From Patiria pectinifera (taxonomy: Eukaryota; Echinodermata; Asteroidea; Valvatida; Asterinidae): a stretch of DNA of 64,000 bases. Below, in pieces: positions 8,238 through 59,646 of the stretch. The stretch spans positions 32,353,366-32,417,365 of the forward strand of contig CM057135.1 of NCBI GenBank assembly GCA_029964075.1. The letters run 5' to 3'. The notes under the pieces are model-generated. The model searched no databases. It was not told the origin of the DNA and saw only the letters and a list, made by a program, of their open reading frames with translations. The translations under genes were made by a program, and so were the position numbers. Position 1 is the stretch's first letter; every line of letters begins with the position of its first letter.

Positions 8238-9004
8238 TATGAGTAGTGTATTGAAGCATTGAAGCATGTATCTTTCTCGCCTGCAGGCATCTTGTATTCT
8301 CATTAAGCACACAAAATGTGCAAACAATTGTCAAGACGGAAATTGGCTCCCGATGATCGTGTACATGTATGAAATTTCACGGCCATGACGAGATATCTAA
8401 TGCATTCTGAGCATACTAGTCGTCATGCACTCCTGATGGTGTGTGCAGGACTGACGCTGCACACAATATGTGGCAAATTAGACTCGGTCTGCTCCTACCA
8501 ATTAGTCAATTTAATCAAGGAAAAGTCTTGATATGAGACTCGAGATGCTTGAGGGGTTTTGAGACGGGCGATGGTGAGGGATCTACGCATTGTTGATCAC
8601 GTCTTTCATGGCTCAGCAAGCAATGCTTCCTTTGTCTTAAAAAGGGAAAAGATTACACTTGGCATTACTTCTGACATCATTTACTTTTTCGCTTTACATT
8701 TACTTTTTTGCTTTAAAAGGGGCATGTCGTCCTGAAATCGCCAACATTTTTATGTTTAAGATTGTTTACTAGGACTGGTTAAAAGAAAACCAACCTAACG
8801 TCGCACTGTTCCTGAGAAAAGACCCCAAAAACGGTTGTCTAGCATTAAAACAGTTAAACCAAAAAAATTCTGAATCTCTTTACAAATTTTCCAAAATGTT
8901 AAAAAAGAAACCCTGATTACAAAAAAGAGAGGTCTACGTTCACAAAATCTTCCTTTGCGTTAACCATGGTTTAAACCTTGGCTATTAGACTTTTTCTAAC
9001 TTAC

Positions 9005-9776
9005 CGCTGATATCAGCTTGGGCAGATCGGCTTCTCTGTTTGGGAGGTCGTACCGCACCCACTTGAGGACAGCGTTGTAAACCTGCGTCTCGCTCAGAAT
9101 CCGAATGTCCGAGGATGCGATGATGTCATAGAAATGGGATGCTGTGATGGTGGGGAACTCCTCGCTAGCCAGGACCTCCGGGAAACGGTCGCAGGTGAAT
9201 GAATCGGCAGCACGGAGCAGCTCGTTCTGCCCGTGGAGTTCAGCGAAGCTCCGCACCCCAAGGCAGTTGGTCGGGTGCAGGTGAGAGGTCATGAAATCGC
9301 AGCACGCTTTGGCAACCATCTCAATTTGAAGCAGCGAGGAAGCACGCAAGAGTTTCTGGACGTTGTCGACCGTCAGCAGCACCTTGGAGGTGTACATGAA
9401 GCTGACGAGGGCTTCCATGGACGCCTCGTCGATGTCGTGGATCGGGACGACGTCCTCCCTGCTCTCCCGCATCTCGGAGGTCAGCATGGCTTTGAAGTAG
9501 GGACTGCAGCAGGCGAGGACCAAGCGGTGGCACTTGAGCCGGGCCGAACCCACGGCCAGCGTGACGTCGCAGAGCGCCCGACGCTCGTACAAATCCCGGA
9601 GGACGTGAAACGAGTCCTGCCAGTGAGTGTGACACTCGAAGGTCAGGGAGGTGATGGGTTCTTGAAACTCCGGGATCTTGTCCCCCATTTTGGTGTTGGC
9701 GGCGCTTTTCTCTGGGGCGTTGTTGTTGATCGTGGTGGTTGTGCCCGAAATCTCAATGATGATTGTCGAGTTGGGC
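9005..9776 (-). CDS. KLHL8: KLHL8-like gene, main BTB/BACK exon
   Basis: This 772-nt minus-strand exon has an ATTCACAG|G acceptor and a CAGCG|GTAAGT donor. It encodes a Ser/Thr/Asn-rich N-terminal segment followed by a BTB domain with the conserved LCDVTL strand, CHRLVLAC, SPYFKAMLTSEM and VSFMYTSKV. The first half of a BACK domain follows (ACCDFMTSHLHPTNCLGVR, then ETQVYNAVLKWV). In this family the BTB domain dimerises and binds CUL3, so the protein should be a ubiquitin-ligase adaptor. CHRLVLAC, the ACC...HPTNCL segment and the VYNAVLKW segment all resemble KLHL8. An internal ATG at 9688 (MGDKIPEF) is a possible alternative start. The exon reads openly up to its acceptor and joins in frame to the ATG exon at 17066-17112. 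The region is clearly GC-richer than its surroundings. Confidence 0.88.
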
Positions 9777-12700
9777 CTGTGAATATTTCCACACACACAA
9801 AAAAGAAGAGAATTAACTGGTTATCAAAAAGAGTCGGGTCTGCACCATTGGGATTGGAATGCAATGAGTTGAAAAGAAATGATGAATAGGTAGGCTTAAA
9901 TACACTGGGACGGTTTGGGATGAAAAATTCAGTTTATCTGAAATTGATCATGCATGCAACAGGGAACGGCGAAGTTTCAAGCCTCACAACACTTTCCACT
10001 TTTTCAATGATTGCATATTTCTGCCCCAGCTTTTGGTACACATCAAAAACAACAACAACAAAGAAAAAAAAAATCCAAACCTTAACCTTTCCCTTCCTTT
10101 AGACTTTCAAACTTAACTGCTGTTACAAGTATTTTTCCACAATAAAAAAAACTTATTCTTACATATATACCTGTACAGTACAAAACTGACCTGTATCAAT
10201 CAAAATGAAATGACCCAAATATATGTAAACAAATATGCTTGGATGACCCTTTCAATCACGAGTGCATTATTTGCATTCAAGAGTGCAAATGATATGAAGC
10301 TAAAATGTTTGAAATATACTTTTAAGTACATACATGTGAAATATCAACTGTACAGTATGCTGCGCAAATGAAGATCAAGTTTGCACACAGAATGTTTAAG
10401 TTGTAAATGAACATGTAAACAAAATCTCATTCCATTGTTGCTGCTACATGTACTTCCTTTATAGCAAAAGTGCTACATGTACAATTGTAAACTGTTCGTG
10501 TGCATTTCACCTACATAATGTGTACTTTCATAGTCATGCAGGATTACAAAGAAATAAAAAGAAATGAATGATTTCATTTCCTTTCAAAAAGCAAAGTATC
10601 AGTGTCCTGTATCCACATGAAACGATACCACATCCTCCCAGCACCACAGGGGAGGAGGATACTACCCAGCGATCCACTGGAAGGGCGGGGCTTGCCAAGT
10701 GCCCCCCTCCCCCACAACAGAAAAAAAAGTGGTTTTCAGTAGATGAATACTTAAATATTAAATGTCCATGGTAATAGATGGTATGCTACTCTTCTATCCA
10801 ATACTATACTCTTTTATCCAATACCATTTGCAACACACCGATCAAGTTTACACGCGCCAGCTACAACTGTGTGTGCGGCACCCCGAGTCAAAAGTTGCAC
10901 CCAAAAGCGGGCCATGTTTGCGTGGACAGCGAACCGATCGATGCCAATGGCTCTAGTGACTAGCAATTAAAAACAACTTGTATATTGTATTCTACTTTAG
11001 ACTAAGTCAAGCAATCTGAAGGCCTTCCGGACAAAGTAAAAAAGTTCAAAAGCGTGATCTCCGCCTCGCCAACTGTTTGTTGTATGTACGTGTACACAAC
11101 AAAAGTAAATGCCTTTACCTCATTTTTCAGTGCTGACAACATCCACCATTCCAATACCTCCAATACCAGCATCACATCATCATTGTTCACACATGTTTAC
11201 AAAGAGTCCACTGAACTGGGCACAGTAACTGACTCCAACTGACAGATCTGCTAGTTGACTGACCACGAGTGACCACTAGTGACCGACAGAAACAGGCAAG
11301 AGTGACCGGCACACAGCCAGTTAAGCCCAATCACTGATGTGCCGACCAGACAATGGACGGTCTCTGAAAGTCCAAGGTAAAATTAGTTCGTGTACCGGCA
11401 ATGAACCGGCCCGTTCGTCAACCACGAGAAAATTATTGAAGTCAATCATGCGTGCCGCCGACAAGATGATCACTGACTCAAACCAAGCAAACACATCAGA
11501 GAGTAGTGTTTCACACGCTATAAAAAAACACAGCAGGGAAGCTGCATGTACATGTCATCTGTAACGCCAATCTACTCGGATCCAAAATGCAGGAAACAGA
11601 TTAAACATGTGTGCTCGCTGTACGCTGGAAAATATTCTAATTCTGACTTCCTGGGAGTACTGTTTAGCAGGGACAGCAATCAAAAACCCGGCTCTGTGCT
11701 CTCCTGATGAAGACATCTGTTTCAATGGACGCGGGGTAATTCACACAAAAAATTGAATGCCAATTTCTCTTAATTCACGGTGGGTTAGGCCGGACGGAAA
11801 TCGAGCGAAAACACAATGGGACATCTATACACATATGTACATGTAGACACAGAAATCTCTATTGTTGAGAGGTATCAATAAACATGCAGACAAAAAAGTT
11901 TGTTTTGTTGCGCAATGAAAAGTAGTGCCCGAGGCCCACCGGTTGGTTACTAACAGCACGCAAGTCAAAACCAGTTTTGAGGAATTTGGAAAATTGTTTG
12001 CATACCTGTTAATTGTTGCTTTGTAGTTTTGTGGCCCCATTCCCTTCTCAACCACTCCTCCAAATGAACACAAGAAATTGAAAATAAAATTGCCAAATTG
12101 TTCAAAAGTACACCTGCCCCTTCCACACATGTGTATACAATTGTATACAATTGTATCGAAACACTACCTATAATTTATAAACAAAGAACTTCATAGTTAA
12201 TTGCATGGGGTTTTGGACTTGGATGATTGATATGGAAAATTGCATTACCATCCAAATAATTGGTTTCGATGTCACTTTGAGTTCTTAATATCCTTTACAC
12301 ATGTACTGGTACACACACGGCATTTATGTGAACACAGTAACTACACACTGATGTTGTAAATTATGCATTTGATAACCAGATCTTTGTTCATTTGGATGCG
12401 TGTTGAAATATCATCATCATAATAAAATGCTATGATGGGTGGAACTGCTGATGTTGGCAATTTGGGATATTTTGTTACGATTAAAGGATACCTTTCTTTT
12501 TTTTCACAAAGGTGTTTTTATAATGTAGTTGATGTCCTCTTTCAACTATTGACGGTAAGTTAAATGTAAATACTCTGACAGATTTTCACTAGTCAACAGC
12601 GCGTTCAGAAAATGTGGTTTTATTGGCTTTGCGTGCGATAAAAGCAATGGACATTTTTACATTTTTTCCCTTTAAATTTAATTCTGTTTACCACTCAGCC

Positions 12701-39687: not shown

Positions 39688-39866
39688 GAATTTCCATGCT
39701 CGCCCCAAGCCATTCTATGACGGCAGCAGCCCTCTCGTTGCGGCAACCGCAGCACCTGCTGGTGCCTCCGGGCCGCTGGTCGTGGCAGCCATCACTGCAA
39801 TTACCATTGTCGTCGTCCTAGTCGTCGGCGTTCCGCTTGCCGTCATTTTTGGAGTCGTCCTGCCAA
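39688..39866 (+). CDS. HYR gene, exon 3: transmembrane segment
   Basis: This 179-nt exon runs from acceptor TTTTGTGCCCAG to donor CTGCCAA|GTAATT, entering phase 2 and leaving phase 1. It encodes a basic/aromatic stretch NFHARPKPFY, an Ala/Pro-rich linker, then a hydrophobic helix rich in Val, Ile, Ala and Leu (TIVVVLVVGVPLAVIFGVVL). With the start at 31804 the helix would fall near residues 57-86. Positive residues lie on the N-terminal side, so the N-terminus should be cytosolic and the HYR domains outside (type II topology). The next exon by phase is at 47251, placing the 7.2-kb transposon inside this gene's intron. No similarity to a named family was recognised for this exon by itself. Confidence 0.75.
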
Positions 39867-39905
39867 GTAATTAAGTTCATAGAGACAAAATGTGTTCAAT
39901 TTGAT

Positions 39906-40255
39906 TTAGTCAGGTTCACTATGTTAAGAAATATAGTTTCGTTCAAATTTTTTGGAGATTAGCAAACTTATACATTTTTAGAATCTTCAGAGCATGGAGA
40001 ATCGGAAAATCAATGTTGGCATTTGCGTAGACACCTGTATGGCGGCCATCTTGGATTTTCAAAATGGCCGCCATAAAATACATAATTTGTGCTGTTTTCG
40101 GCTTCTTGTCAACCAAAAAACATAATTTAAGAGGCTAATCCTGTGTTTTTTGGGTCAAGGAATCTACTAAAAGCCACACAATAGTGCTCCGGATTAAAGA
40201 AAACACCAAAATGGTATGCGAAAACCATTTTCTTTATATTTGTGACATATCAGTG
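39906..40255 (+). repeat. Left terminal inverted repeat of the 7.2-kb element
   Basis: It matches the inverted right end through the blocks GGAGATTAGC, TTTTTAGAATCTTCAGAGCA, AAATCAATGTTGGCATTTGC, CGGCTTCT and TTTATATTTGTGACATATCA. It contains an internal palindrome, ATGGCGGCCAT...ATGGCCGCCAT, at 40039-40084. Confidence 0.85.
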
Positions 40256-41386
40256 CTAATCCTATGTTTTCTGGTGCATATACGCCACAGAGTGGAACAA
40301 TAATATTCCGCTTACATTTTTCGATCTACAAACTCTTTATGTTACAGGAAATAAATTATATGGCCCCGCCCAAACAAAACTTTCTATTGCTGTGGCCAGA
40401 ACAACAGAGGGCGACGTTGGGAGTGGTAATCCAGTGCACTTAATTAAATTTGCATTGTTTCAGTAGTTATGCCCAAAATTTACTCTCACTGTTCTATTCT
40501 CCCACAGGTATGTTCAATTTTTTCTTATGGTCATGTTTTAATTTAAGTGTCATAGATTAAGGATGGCTACTTGTTTTAACTTCATTGTTAAAGATGTTGA
40601 AGGATTGAATGGATGGAAAGTTATGTAAGTTTCAGATCTGTTGTTTCAAAGTAACATGCAAAATTTGCATACATTATTTAAATCTGCACAAACCACAAGT
40701 CATGAGTAAGATAATTCTGATCATATTGAATTCCATGCTTATTGTCTATTGATAATAGGATACTATCTGTCATTCTGTCCATTTGTAGATAAAGCTGTGG
40801 ATATTATGCCTTACTGAGCTTTTGGGGAATCGCTTGATAAATTTGAGATATACATGTGCATTTTACGTAAAGTTTTAAGAGTTGACATGATTGTTTTCTC
40901 AGAAGTGGACTGCTATGCAAACGTTACTCATTAGAATACTTGCAGAAAAAAGTTGCATATAAGCTGGTTACTTTGATTCACTACACATTCATTTACACTC
41001 GAATTCATTGAACTTGTTTTGGAAGTAATTAAAAAAAAACACCGGGCAATATATAAAGAAAGTTGTGTTTCTCAAGTGAGGCATAGACTTATAATTACTT
41101 ACCTGATAGGCCTAATGAAACATTAATTTGTTTTGTGGATATTGCCTGCCATATTGAAACTTGTATCTTGGTGACTGGAAATGATTGTAGGTGTGGACTA
41201 AATGACTGTTCATGTTGCTAGGACTAGAGGGCCAGACTAATAGGAATTTAAGTTTCCACTATTGTAAATGTCATGTATAAGTTATTGAGTAATGTTTTGC
41301 ACTTATTAAAATTTGCATTGTTTCATTTGACATGCCCAAATCAAGTCCTCATTGTTGTTGTTTTTCATCGTTTTATTCTGCGACAG

Positions 41387-41477
41387 CGAGCTAGTGCCCA
41401 TATCCCCAGAATACTGCACCCTGGTTACTGTCATTCAATATGCCAATTCCATCATTCCAGGGACAAGGAATCCACCT
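41387..41477 (+). pseudogene. Upstream coding exon of the transposon gene
   Basis: This 91-nt segment lies between an acceptor-like TTCTGCGACAG and a strong donor, CACCT|GTAAGTAT. Spliced to the acceptor TGCCTGTAG at 41595-41596 it reads in frame into the main body (ISPEYCTLVTVIQYANSI then PGTRNPP joined to VIMMDESS). The splice pair and continuous frame support it, but the first codons are not visible. Alternatively translation starts at the paired ATGs at 41603-41608. Confidence 0.45.
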
Positions 41478-41596
41478 GTAAGTATACCGTAGCTAGAGTC
41501 CTACTTATTCTAATGCGTTGTTTATTTTCATAAAAATATATCTTGGCAGCAGTTCAATTCATCTGACTAACGGTGGATGTTGTTCTGTGCCTGTAG

Positions 41597-42100
41597 GTCA
41601 TTATGATGGATGAAAGCTCTTATGATGACAACTCCAATGAGCCTGTGGACTGGAAACTATGCATCTTCTGTCAGGAGTCTAACACAAGTAAAGGGGCAGT
41701 TGTTCTGAATCCAAGGACCGAATCCTACCAGAAACTACTTGATGTGGTGGCAGAGCGAGCCGGTGTACATGATGGAAAATATGTTGCAATTCAGAGACGT
41801 CTGCAAGGATGTACAAAAGAGATGCTGCTCGACAAGGAAACAATATGGCACCGAAGCTGCTATTCTTCTGCCACAAACCAGACAGAGTTACAGCGAGCCA
41901 GAGACCGCTTCGAACATTCCATGTCCTCAGGACGGTGTGCCATAAAAAAACGAGGCTATAAAAGATCCAGCTCAGAAATGGAAGCAGATACACCAGGAAC
42001 ATCAATGCCGTTCACAAGATCTGCGACAAAGCCTTTGTCAAAAGTCCAGTGTTTCTTTTGTCAATCAGATAACGGTCAAGCTCTCCTCACAGTTAGAACA
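41597..42100 (+). pseudogene. Transposon gene block 1: paired zinc-binding-like modules
   Basis: This block opens with two ATG codons and an acidic N-terminus, then LCIFCQESNTSKG and, about 65 residues on, WHRSCY. This gives a C-x2-C...H-x3-C module. A second one begins QCFFCQSDNGQ and finishes after the first frameshift with YHKLCW (about 42208-42225). A basic, Ser-rich linker with KKRGYKRSSSEME lies between. Such paired modules commonly bind nucleic acid; that role is inferred here. Confidence 0.65.
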
Positions 42101-43645
42101 GGAACTCAGGGAAGGCACTCAGGCAAGCAGTAGAAATTTCCCAAGATCCAGTGTTGATGACAAGATTAAGCAATGCAATATCGCCTTGTGATGCCCATGC
42201 AATAGATGTCAGATATCATAAGCTGTGCTGGACACAAAATGTGTTCCATGTCCTCAGGGATCATACCAGTAAAAAAGCCAAGTCATCGACGCCAGACCTG
42301 CCCTTGCAGATGTCATGCTTGATCGAGTTGATCAATCTTGTTGAAATAGAAACTCAAAACAAAGCATATCTCCCCATGGACGTCATAGAAAACATACATC
42401 TCCATGCTTGGGGTAGCCTAGAGGCACAGAAGCACACGCCAATGCTGACAAGACAATGGCTGAAGGATAAGATTCTTCAGGATTTACCCAGTGTGAATTC
42501 CGTGAGGCAGAAAGACAGACGAAAGCCATCAGTTCTTTACTGCCCTGAAGCCTGTGAAGAAGATATGGTCCACACGTCTATGGTACAAGACCATTTGAGT
42601 GAAATGGACAATACAAAGATGTTATACAAGGCAGCTAAACTAATACGCAGAAGTATTGCAAACTTCACTGACGAGAAGAAACAGTCAGACACAGTTACTG
42701 TAATGAGCACGGCAGAAGACGTTCCACCAGAGTTGTACAGCCTTATGCGATGGATTTTGGTAGGACCTGAAGAAGAGGTGCAAACAGAGATGAGGCGCAG
42801 GACAGTTGACCAATCAGCACTGACATTAAGCCAGAACATCATGTATGCTTTCAAGACCAAAAGGCAAGTTCAGCACCAACCCAAGCAAGCAACAGAAAAA
42901 TTCAGGACACAACACACCCGAGAAAATCCACAGGTTCTGGGTTTGGCACTTACCATTCATCACGACACCAGGAACAAGAAACTAATGAACCTCCTTCATT
43001 CACAGAACTATTGTGTACCATACAGTCGGTCAATGCTCTTGGAAACAGCTATAGCTAATGCTGTAGTGGAAAACACACGGTTGTTCAATGGCCTCTACGT
43101 CCCACCCTTCCTCAAAAGGAACCTTTGTTTTCTTTGCCATTGACAATACAGACTTTGCCGAGGACACAGCTGATGGGAAATGCACCACACATGGGACAAT
43201 CACTGCAGTGTATCAGAAGGCCAATGCTCCAGGAGAGGTCATCGCACCCAGTCTCGAGCTTAGCGAGGCAAAGAATCTGTCAGTTGCCCCATATCATGTA
43301 CCCATCAAGCAATGTAGCAAACCAAAACCTGGACTAGTCAAGAGAGCACAAGAATTCAAGGTCGACACAAAAGGGGTTGCAGAGTCCTATAAACTGACCA
43401 CCCTAGGCTGGCTAGTAGCGTCTGCCCTGTCCAGAGACAAGGATAATGGAGAACATGGCAGTATCCCTGGTTGGGCTGGATTCAAGTCACTCGTGTCACC
43501 TGGAAAATCCTTGACCCAAGTTGGTGCACTACCGTTGCTGCCAGAAGTTGCACATGAGTGGTCTACAATGCTGACTGTGATTCTACAAGCATCCCAGTTG
43601 AAGAGCTTGGTCGTTGGCGAAGAACACCCAACAGTGATTACCTTC

Positions 43646-45288
43646 GACATGGCCTTATAGAAGAGGCGGTGCAGATAGTGGATTCAAGGGATGATCTGAA
43701 AAGAACAGTTCTTCCCAGGCTGGGTGAGCTTCACACTGCAATGGCTGCACTAAGGGCACTTGGCACGTCTATTGAAAATTCTGGGATAGATGATGCGTGG
43801 ATTGAGGCTGATGTATATGGCTCTGCCACAACACGACAGATCTTGAAGTGTGCCCACTACAAAGAACTCTTCGTGCACATATACATACGTACATGGTTCT
43901 GTATGAACTTCTCCTAGAGAAGTTCTTTGCAGAAAAGCCAAACCTCAAATCCATCTGCTCAAAGCCAGTGAATGAAGTCCAGGAAGCCTTTGCAAGATCA
44001 GCAGTTGACAGAGGCATTAGTCCAGAATGCATCGCTAATGCCAATGACCACCTGCTTCAAACCCTCACTGACGAAGATGTTATTGAGCAGCTGAATACAT
44101 GGGAAGCAGAAAAAAGCTCAAATGCAATGTTCAAGTCAATAACAAATTACCTCCATCGTGTTGAAACCATCCTGTTCTTCGTCGAAGCTTCAAGAAATGC
44201 AGATCTAGTTCTCCACCTGCAAGCTGGAGAGGCACAAAGTAAGCTCTTCTTCGCCCTGGATCGGATAAAATACAAACGTCTTTGGCCACGGTACATTGCA
44301 GACATGCAGGAGCTGAAGTGCAGTCATCCGGAAACCTGGCGTGAACTTCAGGACGGGAATATTTCTGTCACTAAGAGTGAGATACCATTTGTCTCCATTG
44401 GCGCAGATCACGCATGTGAACAACTAAATAGGATGATGAAGATACACTCTGGGTTAATTGGTATTTCCAATAATGCCAACGCACGACAGCGGTTCTTTCT
44501 GGCTGCACCAGAGATGTCACGCCTCTCAACAGAGTTTAAAGGGCAATTTGGTGTCACTGCTCATAAACCACAAGAACACCATGAGGTACAACCAAGTGCT
44601 ATCAAGAAAGAGCACCAGGCTGTCAACAAGATCAAGGCCGCCATACTGAGTCACGGGAATCCCTTTGATGCAGAAGGCGATCAGCTTTACAACTTCATGA
44701 CACATGCATATGTTCCCCAAGAGGGTGTTCCACAGATTTTGAATGTCGACAAAAATGGCCAGAAACTGTATGAGGAGTACGTTGCTGAACGCATCAAGGG
44801 AGACGTCAGCCTATGGGCACCAGTTAAGAAGCAGAACAACTCCATGTTCTTGTCAGGAATCAAGAAGCAAACTGTAAAGGTCCGAGACCAATCGGTGGAT
44901 CTGAAAGAAACAAAAGAACTCTTTGGTCGGTTTATGGTTCTAGCCAGATCAAACCGGGACATCGATCAGAAGGATGCGGTCGGGAAATATGAGTTTACTC
45001 TGACTCCCAGGGCATTGTTTGCTCCAGATGGATCAATGCTTCCATGTACAGACAAGTCGAAGCTCATACATTGCCTGGAAAAGCTGGGAAAAAGCAATGA
45101 AACTCATCAGAATGCACAAGCACCAGCATCTGCGGAACATGTTGGTGAAGCAGAAACAGAGAGTCCAAAAATTGCCATTGTGGATGGAATGGTGCTTGTT
45201 CAACAGATGGCAAAGAAACCTGGGACAATCAGCACAGTTAAAGATCTTGGCCAACACTTCAATGACAAGCTGATGTTGTTGACAGCAG
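43646..45288 (+). pseudogene. Transposon gene block: candidate catalytic core
   Basis: Two blocks are joined by a -1 shift near 43867. The residues VITFDMAL, LGELHTAMAALRALGTSI, EADVYGSATT, RAHIHTYMVLYELLL, FVSIGADHACEQLNR and LAAPEMSRLSTEF appear in this order. The pattern D...H...D-H-x-x-E-Q is recognisable in a large family of uncharacterised invertebrate proteins. A DDE-type nuclease fold is a hypothesis; no structure or family search was possible. Confidence 0.5.
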
Positions 45289-45908
45289 ATTTGAGGTTAT
45301 TTTGGTCTTTGACACCTACAAAGCTGACTCGTTGAAACAGAAAACAAGGGAGAAACAAGGCAAACATCCGATTCAGTACCAGATTGCTGACGACACCAAC
45401 ATTAAACACAAACCAATAGCACGCTTCCTATCTCTAAAAGAAGAAATCCGATCTAACTGAATACCTTGCACAGGCAGTAATCAAGTATAACGCGAACTCC
45501 CGAAAATTAGTCATCACATCAGCATCAGGCCGCACAAGAAGCAACCGTGACATGCAGTTTGAAGACAACAACCATGAGGAGGCTGACACATTAATGATCT
45601 GCTTAGCAGCAGCTGCAGCACAGCGCTGTCCTGAAGCACGGATTGTCTTCTTCAGCCCAGATACCGATGTCTTGGTTCTGGTTATTGCACACTACGACCA
45701 GCTCTGCAAACACACCTCGATACGTATGGTATCAGGTACTTTGGAGATTGAGCCAATCTGGAGTGCGCTGGGACGAGACAAGGCAGTAGCATTACTGGTA
45801 TTCCATGCATTCACCGGAGCGGACAATGTTGGAAGATTCTCTGGTGTAGGAAAACCAAGTGGTTTCAACAGTACATTAAGGTTGACAGGGACATCATCTC
45901 AGCACTGA
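45288..45908 (+). pseudogene. Transposon gene block: PIN/FEN1-like domain
   Basis: A segment with VFDTYKADSLKQKTREKQ and DDTNIKHKPIARFLSLKE runs to about 45443, then the frame shifts into DLTEYLAQA and on to HEEADTLMICLAAAA. Next come SPDTDVLVLVIAHYD, with Asp codons at 45660 and 45666, and FHAFTGADNVGRF. Clustered acidic residues after predicted beta strands are typical of PIN/FEN1-like nucleases, but the assignment is by motif only. Confidence 0.55.
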
Positions 45909-46405
45909 TGAAACTGACAGAGGAAGGCGACCTAACACAGGAGGTGAATGGTGCATTAGCCAAGTTTGTATGCTTAATGTACTGCCCAAAGGGCATTCAT
46001 ATAACAAGTATTCCTGACCTGAGGTGGCATCTGTTTTGTAAACATCTGGCAGAAAGCAGCAAGTTGCCTCCTACAGTTGGTGCCCTTGAGTGTGTGCGCG
46101 TACAGAGTAGGGTGTGGTGCCAAGCCACCTTGACGTGGCAACGTCTGTTTGACCCACTCAAACATGGCTATTACCAGAATGACCATGATGAGATACTTCC
46201 TACCACCACGAAGGTTCCACCTGCACCACAGGCCATTGTAGAGTTGGTGAGATGTCAGTGTAAAGCCCATTGCACATCCCAGAGGTGTTCATGCAGGAGA
46301 CACAACTTGGCTTGCACAGACCTTTGTTTGTGTGGAAGTGACTGCGAAAATGATGCGGACTGTATTGCCCAAAGTGACACTCAGGACAGTGATGAAGATT
46401 TGTGA
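45908..46405 (+). pseudogene. Transposon gene block: C-terminal region with CXC domain
   Basis: This block contains DLRWHLFCKHLAESSKLPPT, then a cysteine cluster at about 46253-46350 with spacing C-x-C-x3-C-x4-C-x-C-x6-C-x3-C-x-C-x3-C, and an acidic tail ending SDEDL. The spacing matches half of a tesmin/TSO1-type CXC domain, known to bind DNA with zinc. A stop codon at 46403-46405 ends the gene. The block is intact over 165 codons. Confidence 0.7.
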
Positions 46406-46525
46406 AAGCATAATCGTGAACAATATCGACCTAGTAGATCCTGTGTAAGAAAGTTATAGTTTAAGCTAATAACTAACAAGGCTTTTGTTTTTTGCTTTAT
46501 AAACCGTAACTTCAAAAGAATTGCG

Positions 46526-46905
46526 GCATGTATTATGTAATACAGTCAATCACAAACACAAAGACAGTGGTGCTCATTTAGCATTGTTTCATTGCTTTGA
46601 TATACTCCTGAGCACTATTTTGAGGAGTTTATCGGATTCACTAAACCAGAAAAAATAGGATTACATACTTAAATAAGTTTATAGATTGACTAGATACCGA
46701 GATAGCGCAAAATATGTATTACGTAACACTGATATGTCACAAATATAAAGAAAATGGTTTTCACATACCTTTTTTGTTGCTTTCTATAATCCTGGGCACT
46801 ATTGTGAGGCTTTAAATAGATTCCTTGACCCAGAAAACATAGTATTGGCCTCTTAAATTATGGTTTTTGGTTGACTAGAAGCCGAAAACTGCGAAAATTA
46901 TGTAT
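46526..46905 (+). repeat. Subterminal tandem repeat (two units of about 185 bp) in the transposon's right end
   Basis: Units begin at about 46526 (CATGTATTATGTAATACAGT) and 46711 (AATATGTATTACGTAACACT). Both then run through TCACAAA, a segment near CACTATTTTGAGGAGTTTAT / CACTATTGTGAGGCTTTAAA, and a block before GACTAG. The outer unit overlaps the right terminal inverted repeat. The left end keeps at most a fragment of a second unit. Confidence 0.65.
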
Positions 46906-47067
46906 TTTATGGCGGCCATTTTGAAAATCCAAGATGGCCGCCATGCAGGTGTCTATGCAAATGCCAACATTGATTTTCTGATTCACCATGCTCTGAAGAT
47001 TCTAAAAATGTATAGTTTGGCTAATCTCCAAAAAAATTGAACAAAAATACATAGTGAACCTGACTAA
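46727..47067 (-). repeat. Right terminal inverted repeat of the 7.2-kb element
   Basis: This is the inverted partner of 39906-40255, ending ACATAGTGAACCTGACTAA. It includes the ATGGCGGCCAT...ATGGCCGCCAT palindrome at 46909-46944, as the left end does. Confidence 0.85.
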
Positions 47068-47250
47068 TTCAACAAATTGCACATTTCAATATGTTTTAAT
47101 TTAAGAAGATTCAAGTAGTTAATATAATTTTTTTTAAAAATTCAAGATGTTGTAGTATTACTTTTCTCCTTTTTTCAAATCATTTGTCTAGATGTTTGCT
47201 TTCATGCTACCTTATTGAAATAAATGTTTTCTTTCTTGATCGATTTACAG

Positions 47251-47835: not shown

Positions 47836-48066
47836 GTACGTAGTATTTTTAAGGATCTTCCTGCATTTAGCACATTTGTCTTTTTTCAAAAATGTGATCC
47901 GTGAATTGGTATGTTTTGGATATCAGATGGAAGCTTAGAGCTTATTCTTTCAAGTAGTCATCAAAACAATACATTGGGTTGCTGAGAAAATGCCAAGTCC
48001 GCAATGCAAAAATCTATCTTACAAGATATTGTATTGATTCATTCCATTCCATCCGTATACGTTCAG

Positions 48067-48318
48067 TTGCTCCGCCTGTAAGAACCCTACTAGTGCAATG
48101 TCCCGACGACATCTCAAGGGGCACGGACACAGGACTGGCCACTGCTGTTGTCAACTGGAATGCGCCGAATGTCCTCAGCCCGACAGTGGGTCAAGTGACA
48201 ATGACGCCAACTGTCCAGCCAAACCAAGCCTTCCCCATCGGCAGACGTAAGGTTGATTACGTCGTGACTGATGCTGCAAACAATAGGGGAACCTGTTTCT
48301 TTTGGATCACGATTGTCG
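48067..48318 (+). CDS. HYR gene, exon 6: HYR domain 1
   Basis: This 252-nt exon between ATACGTTCAG and GTCG|GTAAAG is symmetrical phase 1-1. It encodes VQCPDDISRG, VVNWNAPNV, a MTPTVQPNQAFPIGRRKVDY segment and NRGTCFFWITIVG. The order CP...PIG...V.Y.V.D...N.G.C.F is the HYR (hyalin-repeat) signature. HYR domains are immunoglobulin-like extracellular adhesion modules. This first copy lacks the usual D-N-S stretch of the later domains. Confidence 0.85.
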
Positions 48319-48423
48319 GTAAAGTCAAATGTGTTTTACCTTTTTTATTTCTTCATCAAATTAAGCACCTCAGGAAACTGACTTGGTACAATTAAAATAA
48401 TTGTTGAGTTGAACACAGAAAGT

Positions 48424-48497
48424 GACTGGAGCGGGGTTTGAACCTGAGTCCTCAGGAATGCTGCACCGATGCTCTACCAACTGAGCTATCCAGCCCT
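48424..48497 (-). mobile_element. tRNA-derived SINE head
   Basis: On the minus strand it reads GGCTGGATAGCTCAGTTGGT and on to a box B GGTTCAAACCC. A 7-bp acceptor-like stem is possible, but the anticodon arm is too long in the loop and the T-stem is poorly paired. I therefore call it a SINE-type pseudo-tRNA rather than a working gene. Confidence 0.6.
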
Positions 48498-53917: not shown

Positions 53918-54368
53918 GTATGTTTGTTTGTTTTCACAACTAAAACAATATTATTCAGTTCTCAAGATTTTCCTAGACACAATTTTTTTTTTACTTGATG
54001 GCTTTACTCACGTTTTGTAGAGTGATGTGGTCTAGGGCTTATATGGCATTTGACCTATTTGCCACGATTCTTGGGTTCCAATCGTGATGGGGAGCAGAGT
54101 GCTTGTGTCCTTGGGCAAGACACATTACTACAACTGCCTCCCTCTGCCCAGGAGTATCAATTAGTATTGCAAAAAGGAATGAGGATTAAGGGTCCACAAG
54201 TATTAATAAAGATGCGTGTGTGTTAATGTGTTTAATGGCACACTGCGGTATTTTCGTAGGCCCTGGAATGTTTCGAAGGCCTGAGGCACAGTGCCTACTG
54301 TGCCTGTTGGATAATCCGGGCCTGCTTACAGATTGTTCTATAAAAAGATTTGGATGTTATTGTTTCAG
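53918..54368 (+). other. Intron after HYR domain 5, with a SINE fragment
   Basis: This 0.45-kb intron carries a SINE-like stretch at about 54015-54180 and nothing else recognised. Confidence 0.7.
54015..54180 (+). mobile_element. SINE fragment with TGTCCTTGGGCAAGACAC motif
   Basis: The tRNA-like head GTGGTCTAGGGCTTATATGG and box B-like GGGTTCCAATC are followed by TGTCCTTGGGCAAGACACAT (54106-54125). That block is shared by V-SINE-like elements in many animals. A second copy of the block lies in the next intron. Confidence 0.65.
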
Positions 54369-54614
54369 ATAACGAGCCACCCTCGATAACGTGTCGATCC
54401 CTCATCACGGTGCGTGCAGTGGAAGGGCAGTCCTACGGCAACTTCAGTTTCCCGCCGCCCGCCGCAATGTCGGACAATTCCGGGGGAATTGTTGATGTCA
54501 CCACATCGCCGGCTAGCAACACCAGACTGATGATTGGGACGCACCAGGTCCTTTACACTGCAACTGATCCGTCAGGGAACAGTGCAATGTGTAATCTTAC
54601 TGTCAACATTGTTG
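54369..54614 (+). CDS. HYR gene, exon 12: HYR domain 6
   Basis: This 246-nt phase 1-1 exon between TTGTTTCAG and TTGTTG|GTGAGT encodes DNEPPSITCRSLITVRAV, FPPPAAMSDNSGGIVDV, TTSPASNTRLMIGTHQV and TATDPSGNSAMCNLTVNIVG. CR replaces the usual CP after the first cysteine. It pairs with domain 9 in sequence (DNSGG, TTSPA.N, TDPSGN), supporting a block duplication. Confidence 0.9.
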
Positions 54615-55069
54615 GTGAGTTGCACCATTCCCTTCCCTGTGCTCCCCTACCCCCTACCCCCTCCTCCTACCCCTTACCCCCTCCCCCTACCCCCTACCCT
54701 CTCCTCCTACCCCCTAACACCCCCCCCCAAAAAAAGTGCTGAACTGCAGATGATCTGGCGCCTCATGGTCTGTGTATTAAACTCAAGATGTTGTGGAGAA
54801 TTCAGCTGCTCGTTGGTCCAAATCTAGCCTGTGGGGTTGTGGTACGTGTGTCCTTGGGCAAGACACTTTATCCCAATTTGCTTCCCACCCATGTGTATGA
54901 GCTAACAATCCCGGGACAGTTACAGCATCGAGCCATGGAATCAGAAGACCATGATATTTTGAACGTCATCATACTTCTCAAGGTGTCAAGCAACTATGAG
55001 TTTTTTTTGTGGAATATGCAGTCAATAAAAATTGCCACGTATTCCAACCTGTTTGTTTCAATTTCTCAG
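54615..55069 (+). other. Intron after HYR domain 6, with a C-rich run and SINE fragment
   Basis: This 0.45-kb intron begins with a CCCCTACC-type low-complexity repeat (54645-54730). It holds a second SINE block, TGTCCTTGGGCAAGACACTT at 54849-54868, preceded by TAGCCTGTGGGGTTGTGGTA. Some short frames over the C-rich run are noise. Confidence 0.7.
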
Positions 55070-55306
55070 ATTTTGAAACGCCGGACTTGGCCTGTCCGGC
55101 CGACGTCAACACCACCACGCCCTCGGGAATGGCCACGACTAGCGTTACCTTCGCAGCAACGGTCATCGATAACTCGGGCGTCATCACAGCGACGTCAGAC
55201 ATTCCCACGGGCAGTCCATTCTCCATCGGTATGACGGTGGTGACGTTCACTGCAACGGACGACTCAGGCAACACCGTCACCTGCAATTTCACCATCACAG
55301 TCCGAG
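55070..55306 (+). CDS. HYR gene, exon 13: HYR domain 7
   Basis: This 237-nt phase 1-1 exon between ATTTCTCAG and CCGAG|GTATGA encodes DFETPDLACPADVNTTT, VTFAATVIDNSGVITA, SPFSIGMTVVTFTATDDSGN and CNFTITVRG. The two conserved cysteines are present. It is the counterpart of domain 10 (DLxCPAD, TVVxxTAxDD). The exon is GC-richer than the introns around it. Confidence 0.9.
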
Positions 55307-55432
55307 GTATGATTTCGCATCCACTGGGCAGAATTACGGTCGGACATTTGTCACTTTCTGACCGTGGATATGCTCAGTCGAATTTGTGAGGCATTCTGGC
55401 AAAATGAGACAGAACTCAGCACAGGCTGTAGC

Positions 55433-57959: not shown

Positions 57960-58859
57960 GTCATGGTGCTGGTTGATTACTAAATTTTGAAGTGCACATA
58001 GGTGGAAAGTTGGCCGATATTTATCTTGTCTAGTTGGGTTTTGAAGGCGTTCAGTGTGGGTTGGTTTTTAGTAGCGTCAGGTAGGAGGTTCCATTCGGGG
58101 ACTGTCCATGGGTATAGCGAGTGGAGATAGTTGTTTTTGTTTGACTGGAGGCGTTGAAGATTTAAAGTGCTATTGGTTTGTCTGGTAGTACGTCTGGTGG
58201 TTGGCTGGTCACTGGGTAGATGAATTTGCAGATGGGAGATATTGCAGTGACGCTCGATAAGTAACTGTAGTCCCTCAGGACGAACCTGGCTGCACGTCTC
58301 TGAACTTTTTCAAGCACGGTGATGGTGTTCAATTGGTGGGGGTCCCATATGACTTGACAATATTCCAGAAGTGGTCGAACAAGTGCCTTATATGCTATTT
58401 CGTTGGTGTGTTTATCACAGCTGGATAATGTTCTTTTGAGTAGACCAAGGGTTCTGTTTGCTTTGACTGCAATTTGGTTTATGTGTCTATTCCAAGTCAT
58501 ATCAGAAGTAAGTTCAACTCCCAAGTATGTGTGATGATCGACTTCGCTAAGTATATATCATCACCCATCGTGTACTGGTTGGAGTTTGGTTTCCGTTTAT
58601 GTGTCACTCGCATGGAGAAGCATTTGGACCGATTAAAACCCATTTGCCAGATAGATTCCCAAGTACATAGGAGGTCGATGTCCTTTTGCAGGATTTTAGA
58701 GTCCTCAGGAGACTTTATTTCCCGATACAGAATGCAGTCATCAGCAAAAAGTCTGACGCATGATGATAGTTCGTTCGGCAGGTCGTTGATGTAGACTAAA
58801 AATAACAAGGGCCCCAACACTGTTCCTTGTGAGACCCCCGACACAACTGGCGATGGTTC
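57960..58859 (-). mobile_element. 5'-truncated non-LTR retrotransposon (reverse transcriptase C-terminal half)
   Basis: On the minus strand the reading starts at about 58859 with SGVSQGTVLGPLLFLVYIND, then LFADDCILYREI, where FADD is the catalytic motif of a non-LTR reverse transcriptase. It continues QMGFNRSKCFSMRVTHKRK. Near 58535 a frame shift leads into YLGVELTSDMTWNRH, NRTLGLLKRTL and VLEKVQRRAARFVL, typical of the thumb and C-terminal region. The 5' half is missing, and the start abuts a poly-G element. It is probably of the Jockey/CR1 group on motif style (inference). The 3' limit is approximate. Confidence 0.8.
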
Positions 58860-59205
58860 AAGGGCGGATCCAGGGGGGGCCAAAGGGGGCCATGACACAA
58901 CTGGCGATGGTTCAAGGGCGGATCCAGGGGGGGCCAAAGGGGGCCATGACCCCCCCCCCCAAAAAAACAACATTTTTTTTTTTTTTTTTATGTACGTCGC
59001 AATAAAGGCAGGCAATGAGTACACCACCATCTTTTCCTCAAAAAAACATTGGTTAAAGTGGTCAGAAATTGCCTCAGATCGCACCACAGAGCATCTAGAA
59101 TCAAACAAATTTTCGGGGCCCTTAAGCGGGCCCCGAACCCCACGCCGTAATTTTTTGACCCACTTTTTGGGGGGGACCCAAAAATTTTTTGGCCCCCCCC
59201 CCAAA
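58846..59205 (-). repeat. Poly-G/C element with local duplication at the edge of the reverse transcriptase
   Basis: A segment of about 54 bp, CACAACTGGCGATGGTTCAA and onwards through GGATCCAGGGGGGGCCAAAG, is repeated twice in tandem at 58846-58945. Family-G phrases follow in inverted order, GCACCACAGAGCATCTAGAA, and poly-C/poly-T runs. The AGGGCGGATCC end is the same as at 19.85 kb. Confidence 0.65.
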
Positions 59206-59215
59206 AAATTGTCAT

Positions 59216-59646
59216 GGTTTGATACGCAATAACCCGCCGCTGCGATAACTCGCCGCCGCAAGCGGGCGCTATCACGACGAACCAATATCACCCATGAACC
59301 TGTCAGGAACAATGACAGGGGGAAACTAGTACGCATGCGCTTCTTCTGCTGGCAATTACGGTTCATTTTCAGTCCCACGCACACCACACACCACAAAACA
59401 GCTGACCAGTGAAGTTGCACAAAAGTCTTGCTGCCTCTTTTATACTACTGGAAGAAATTTAATGGTTTGGTCCGGAGCTACATTGAAATGTTTTGAATGC
59501 GCGCTGCATATATTAGGGCAAACATGTGTGAGCGCATAACACAACCGATACGAATGTCCCTAGACATTGTTCTGACAGGTTCGTGGGTGATATTGGTTGG
59601 TCGTGATAATGCCCTCTCGCGGCGGCGGGTTATCGCGTATCAAACC
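59216..59646. repeat. Foldback MITE with GGTTTGATACGC ends
   Basis: The left arm GGTTTGATACGCAATAACCC and the right arm GGGTTATCGCGTATCAAACC are inverted copies. Arms of about 90 bp continue through ACCAATATCACCCATGAACC / GGTTCGTGGGTGATATTGGT. The interior has no open frame. Confidence 0.8.

Follow-up and report, generated by a model that had tools for sequence, protein, structure and literature searches.

To which kind of mobile element does a 7.2-kb inverted-repeat structure belong when its protein fits no textbook transposase family? This question is raised by a locus of the starfish Patiria pectinifera, lying in a stretch of 64,000 nucleotides (hereafter the window; C7:32353366-32417365 within a 613.5-Mb assembly of 1020 contigs). 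A preliminary description, made from the letters of this DNA alone, had proposed a transposon of a poorly described superfamily. We find that the element is a real, recently mobile cut-and-paste transposon, and consider it very probable that it represents a class II transposon family of Academ's nuclease-bearing AcademX lineage, with which it was compared by published description.

Long inverted ends delimit the element

Comparison of the flanks placed the 7160-bp element at window positions 39907-47066, with ATT directly outside each end; the two copies of this 3-bp target-site duplication (TSD) occupy 39904..39906 and 47067..47069. The element originally outlined at 39906..47067 was thus confirmed and its boundaries refined: since ATT lies directly outside the refined ends, the wider span takes in one TSD base per side. 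The terminal inverted repeats (TIRs), delimited by end alignment, measure 352 bp on the left (39907..40258, + strand, beginning TAGTCAGGTTCACTATGT) and 343 bp on the right (46724..47066, - strand, ending CCTGACTA), in agreement with the 340-350 bp first proposed. They are 88.4% identical over 353 alignment columns and contain ungapped arms of 281 nt that are 90% complementary, with additional arms beyond. Local alignment of the two 400-bp ends scored 511, compared to a maximum of 61 when 200 pairs of 400-mers were drawn at random from the window.

Both TIRs also hold an imperfect palindrome with ATGGCGGCCAT-type halves (40038-40074 and 46908-46944). The 37-bp palindrome stretch is repeated near the termini of related copies with a spacing of about 160 bp and is a possible candidate for a binding site.

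Near-identical copies are dispersed in the genome

A search of the same genome with the left end gave at least 65 matches at E<=0.001, 40 of 230 candidates having been scored. Full copies with the same ends, which the preliminary description expected of a mobile element, were found five times on four contigs (the window; C22:17.58 Mb; C6:16.80 Mb; C7:3.08 Mb; C21:3.29 Mb). Between any two of them, substitutions amount to 0.17-0.61%, and indel events number 5-21. Such near-identical, dispersed copies show recent spread, although gene conversion could contribute to their near-identity. Two shorter copies (L036 and L037; 4900 and 4844 bp) share the ends and retain portions of the 3′ coding region; their middles gave no alignment to the window element. 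A retrotransposon-integrase-like frame was noticed, by eye only, in the middle of the 4.84-kb copy (L037:2940-3290, - strand).

Could these copies instead be a host multigene family, or a duplicated locus that resembles a transposon? Database entries for some relatives do describe them as host proteins, either 'hypothetical' or 'Tesmin/TSO1-like CXC domain-containing'. Against this, the same ends occur at sites that are otherwise unrelated, accompanied by 3-bp duplications, and enclose different middles in the shorter copies. Since the copies are dispersed and carry TSDs, we reject a host gene family as hardly conceivable.

The target-site duplication is 3 bp long

The TSD was assessed in copies with two ends, namely L031-L037 and three more distant copies, L056, L057 and L059; L038-L043 were excluded from the count, having one recognisable end each. 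A 3-bp TSD lies next to TAGTCARG-type ends in 7 of these 10 copies. Five of the seven copies L031-L037 have the same 3 bp on either side of TAGTCAGG...CCTGACTA (ATT, TAA, ATA, ATT, TAA). The two sides are unequal in L033 and also in L035, where AAT is repeated only at a shifted position; one end is variable at its first two bases in both L034 and L035. As for the distant copies, L056 has a TSD of CAA, L057 has none and L059 has TAT, this last being read by eye from the printed flanks, as the script had placed the edges elsewhere. Without L059, the TSD is seen in 6 of 9 copies, a result equalled in 36 of 100,000 trials in which left and right flanks were paired anew. Mismatched left and right flanks agree by chance in 7 of 72 pairings because the flanks are A+T-rich. 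The family of L059 is about 30% identical in protein, yet the TAGTCAGG terminus is the same. In L058, a 29%-identical relative, neither the TAGTCARG motif nor a long TIR was found.

A mariner-type TA duplication was rejected: since the three bases outside repeat directly in the seven copies, the TA beside GTCAGG is better assigned to the TIR. Kolobok, described in PMC9587614 as having a TTAA-specific 4-bp TSD, was also rejected, the duplications here being the ATT, TAA, ATA, ATT, TAA, CAA and TAT given above.

The protein combines a predicted transposase core with a predicted 5′ nuclease

The transposase/nuclease gene lies at 41603..46405 (+ strand), as defined by its frames and by the continuous frame of the C7:3.08-Mb copy. 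The 'one long gene' of the preliminary description was not borne out in the window copy, where several overlapping frames indicate an interrupted gene. Interruptions occur in all five full-length copies of the assembly: the C7:3.08-Mb copy has a continuous 1348-aa frame, about the last five-sixths of the protein, after a 273-aa first frame, and the other three copies are broken at different places. The breaks may be real or may be assembly errors. The element's protein is about 1600 aa long, a size that some relatives reach in one unbroken frame, such as P0001 (1611 aa, 83% identical). In comparison to a 66%-identical family, the ratio of nonsynonymous to synonymous change (pN/pS) was 0.26 overall (core, 0.24; nuclease, 0.31), values that show only that the protein sequence has been retained, because synonymous change is saturated.

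The motifs singled out beforehand (VITFDMAL, DHACEQ, HEEADT, SPDTDVLVL and the Cys cluster) were all found in the translation. The two N-terminal Cys/His modules, located from frames and mapping at 41660..41860 and 42050..42228 (+), are also present, but with the spacing C-x2-C...H-x2-C (HRSC, HKLC) and not the H-x3-C first given; both are likely to be zinc sites.

The RNase-H-like DDE (Asp-Asp-Glu) core spans 43142..44420 (+), on the basis of the structure model, VIA-align, conservation and mapping, with the triad codons at 43142-43144 (D), 43646-43648 (D) and 44418-44420 (E). Its predicted RNase-H-like fold finds its best structural match in the P element, followed by Hermes and RAG1, and an all-helical insertion is placed between the fifth strand and the helix of the catalytic Glu. 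Membership of the P-element superfamily, with an additional nuclease, is nonetheless very improbable: the TSD here is 3 bp long, versus 7-8 bp in the P element, and no P-element or THAP profile was seen among the Pfam matches of the scanned proteins.

The second domain, a FEN1/XPG-type 5′ nuclease at 45054..46156 (+; structure model, Foldseek, VIA-align, conservation and mapping), has a predicted fold that matches FEN1/XPG/Exo1/GEN1 across most of the catalytic core. FEN1 has seven catalytic carboxylates. Seven near-invariant acids, whose codons begin at 45183, 45311, 45579, 45585, 45660, 45666 and 45822, occur in the order expected for that set, the comparison being one of order. The Pfam FEN1/XPG and PIN profiles gave no match by sequence in the proteins scanned; it is structure prediction that identifies the domain as a nuclease. 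Across 179 related proteins, the DDE and nuclease active sites are both nearly invariant. The proposal of a transposase with an RNase-H-like core plus a second nuclease is thus well supported by predicted folds and conserved active sites; structure prediction, which had been suggested as a check, gave an RNase-H-like core and a C-terminal part of the FEN1/XPG/Exo1 type of 5′ nuclease.

The CXC-like cluster of nine cysteines at the C-terminal end was mapped to 46253..46345 (+) from sub-cut-off Pfam TCR matches and conservation. Each cysteine is conserved in 125-133 of 132-135 ungapped proteins, and the TCR profile scored 9-21 bits where it matched (cut-off 23.5), several relatives being unmatched. 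At the other extremity, the 5′ part of the element (40259..41602, +; sequence and frame list) has no long frame matching the protein. It contains a 52-bp imperfect direct repeat (40426-40477 and 41289-41340), and an AG directly upstream of the open reading frame could serve as a splice acceptor.

A probable new family of AcademX

The Pfam profile DUF6589 (PF20231), which has no annotated function, matches the core weakly, over the portion that runs from the second Asp as far as the Glu region. P0050 scored above the cut-off (27.1 vs. 27), the other matched scanned proteins, including the window's family, falling below it; precomputed annotations list the domain in several relatives, e.g. one from Porites. 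Other sub-cut-off Pfam matches (Hen1_Lam_C, NusG, DUF6988, YceG, LonB lid, etc.) were set aside. Named relatives come from corals, a sea anemone, fireflies, another beetle, two fishes (P0029 and P0037) and a sea spider. The viral contigs scanned gave 85 pattern matches and zero relatives, and a sequence search of the PDB returned only weak, chance-like matches.

The Academ superfamily and its AcademX lineage are reportedly owed to Kapitonov and Jurka in 2010 and Kojima in 2020. In general usage the nuclease of Academ is termed XPG-like; Academ also possesses a domain rich in cysteine. According to PMC10045372, the TSD is 3 or 4 bp in AcademX and 9 or 10 bp in AcademH, a contrast related to the nuclease encoded by the former and the helicase encoded by the latter. 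Membership of AcademX is likely because the TIRs, the DDE core, the encoded nuclease and the 3-bp TSD fit this description. AcademH was rejected, given the 3-bp TSD and the lack of any helicase hit by Pfam in the proteins scanned. A search with a distant relative as query found no bridge to AcademH either, since neither PF00270 nor PF00271 occurs in the precomputed Pfam domains among the matches listed (120 of 138 proteins).

There is a small chance that the element belongs to a separate, undescribed DDE superfamily, related to Academ but outside it, to which a FEN1-type nuclease was joined independently. Pfam has the core as DUF6589 alone, below cut-off in the window's family, and this name was not found in the literature searched; the likeness to AcademX is one of description, not of direct comparison with Academ sequences. 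Against these points, TIR, DDE core, nuclease and 3-bp TSD jointly fit AcademX (PMC10045372), and Academ has been reported in teleost fishes (PMC4746887); P0029 and P0037 carry fish names. Most probably, we are dealing with a new AcademX family rather than a new superfamily. The superfamily is little studied, as the preliminary description had it, but the features fit one that is already named, Academ.

A possible role for the nuclease in transposition

The domains suggest three steps; the TSD length itself is observed. Most likely, recognition and binding of the long ends would fall to the Cys modules. The DDE core would then cut the TAGTCAGG ends and join them to the target, leaving a 3-bp stagger, and flaps or gaps in the DNA where the element leaves or integrates would be trimmed by the 5′ nuclease. 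More tentatively, and less probably than not, the fused nuclease may be obligatory, trimming 5′ flap or stagger intermediates of the P-element-like core and thereby setting the 3-bp TSD. If true, transposition would here proceed with a structure-specific repair nuclease built into the machinery, a pathway that to our knowledge would differ from those known for DDE transposases. The nuclease step is worth testing because published TSD length differs between the nuclease and helicase lineages. No biochemical study of an Academ element was found by title in a search that left most subscription-journal papers outside. The present family is young, has many copies and is open to structural reading: its single chain is predicted to hold a core like that of the P element together with a nuclease of FEN1 type, both conserved at the protein level. 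It allows one to ask for what reason a flap nuclease is part of a transposase, and whether that nuclease sets TSD length.

Our data also suggest that a number of animal proteins labelled 'Tesmin/TSO1-like CXC' or DUF6589 are transposon proteins. Literature containing both 'TSO1-like CXC' and 'transposon' concerned plant subjects, as judged by title and start of abstract.

Surroundings of the element

Three HYR-domain frames lie downstream on the same strand (+) at 47958-48392, 54344-54739 and 55000-55386 (Pfam E 4e-14 to 8e-14), and a hydrophobic, coding-like stretch was seen by eye upstream, at about 39690-39870. Because of these neighbours, the element may lie inside an intron of a large HYR-domain gene. 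Elsewhere in the window are a BTB/BACK (Kelch-like) coding frame (8999-9820, -; BTB E 6e-30) and a reverse transcriptase fragment, probably of retrotransposon origin (58500-59444, -; Pfam RVT_1 E 7e-9). An Rfam tRNA match (48423-48495, -; 41.2 bits), with no ARAGORN call, is possibly a tRNA-derived short interspersed element or a decayed tRNA.

Comparison with known systems

The P element, hAT (Hermes) and RAG1 likewise have an RNase-H-like core in which a helical insertion precedes the catalytic Glu, as predicted here. The TSD is 8 bp in hAT and 5 bp in RAG1, and we know of no 5′ nuclease in the chains of these three. FEN1, XPG, Exo1 and GEN1 resemble the nuclease in the predicted fold of most of the catalytic core and in the order of the seven acids; they differ in sequence (about 10-17% identity in VIA-align rows), and the nuclease here lies within a transposon protein. 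AcademH would belong to the same superfamily as the element if the Academ assignment holds, but has a helicase and a 9-10 bp TSD. The curated Academ elements of bivalves have a mean length of 5565 bp (PMC10294476), the element being longer at 7.2 kb. With AcademX, it has in common the TIRs, a TSD in the 3-4 bp range and, by prediction, the DDE transposase and the encoded nuclease.
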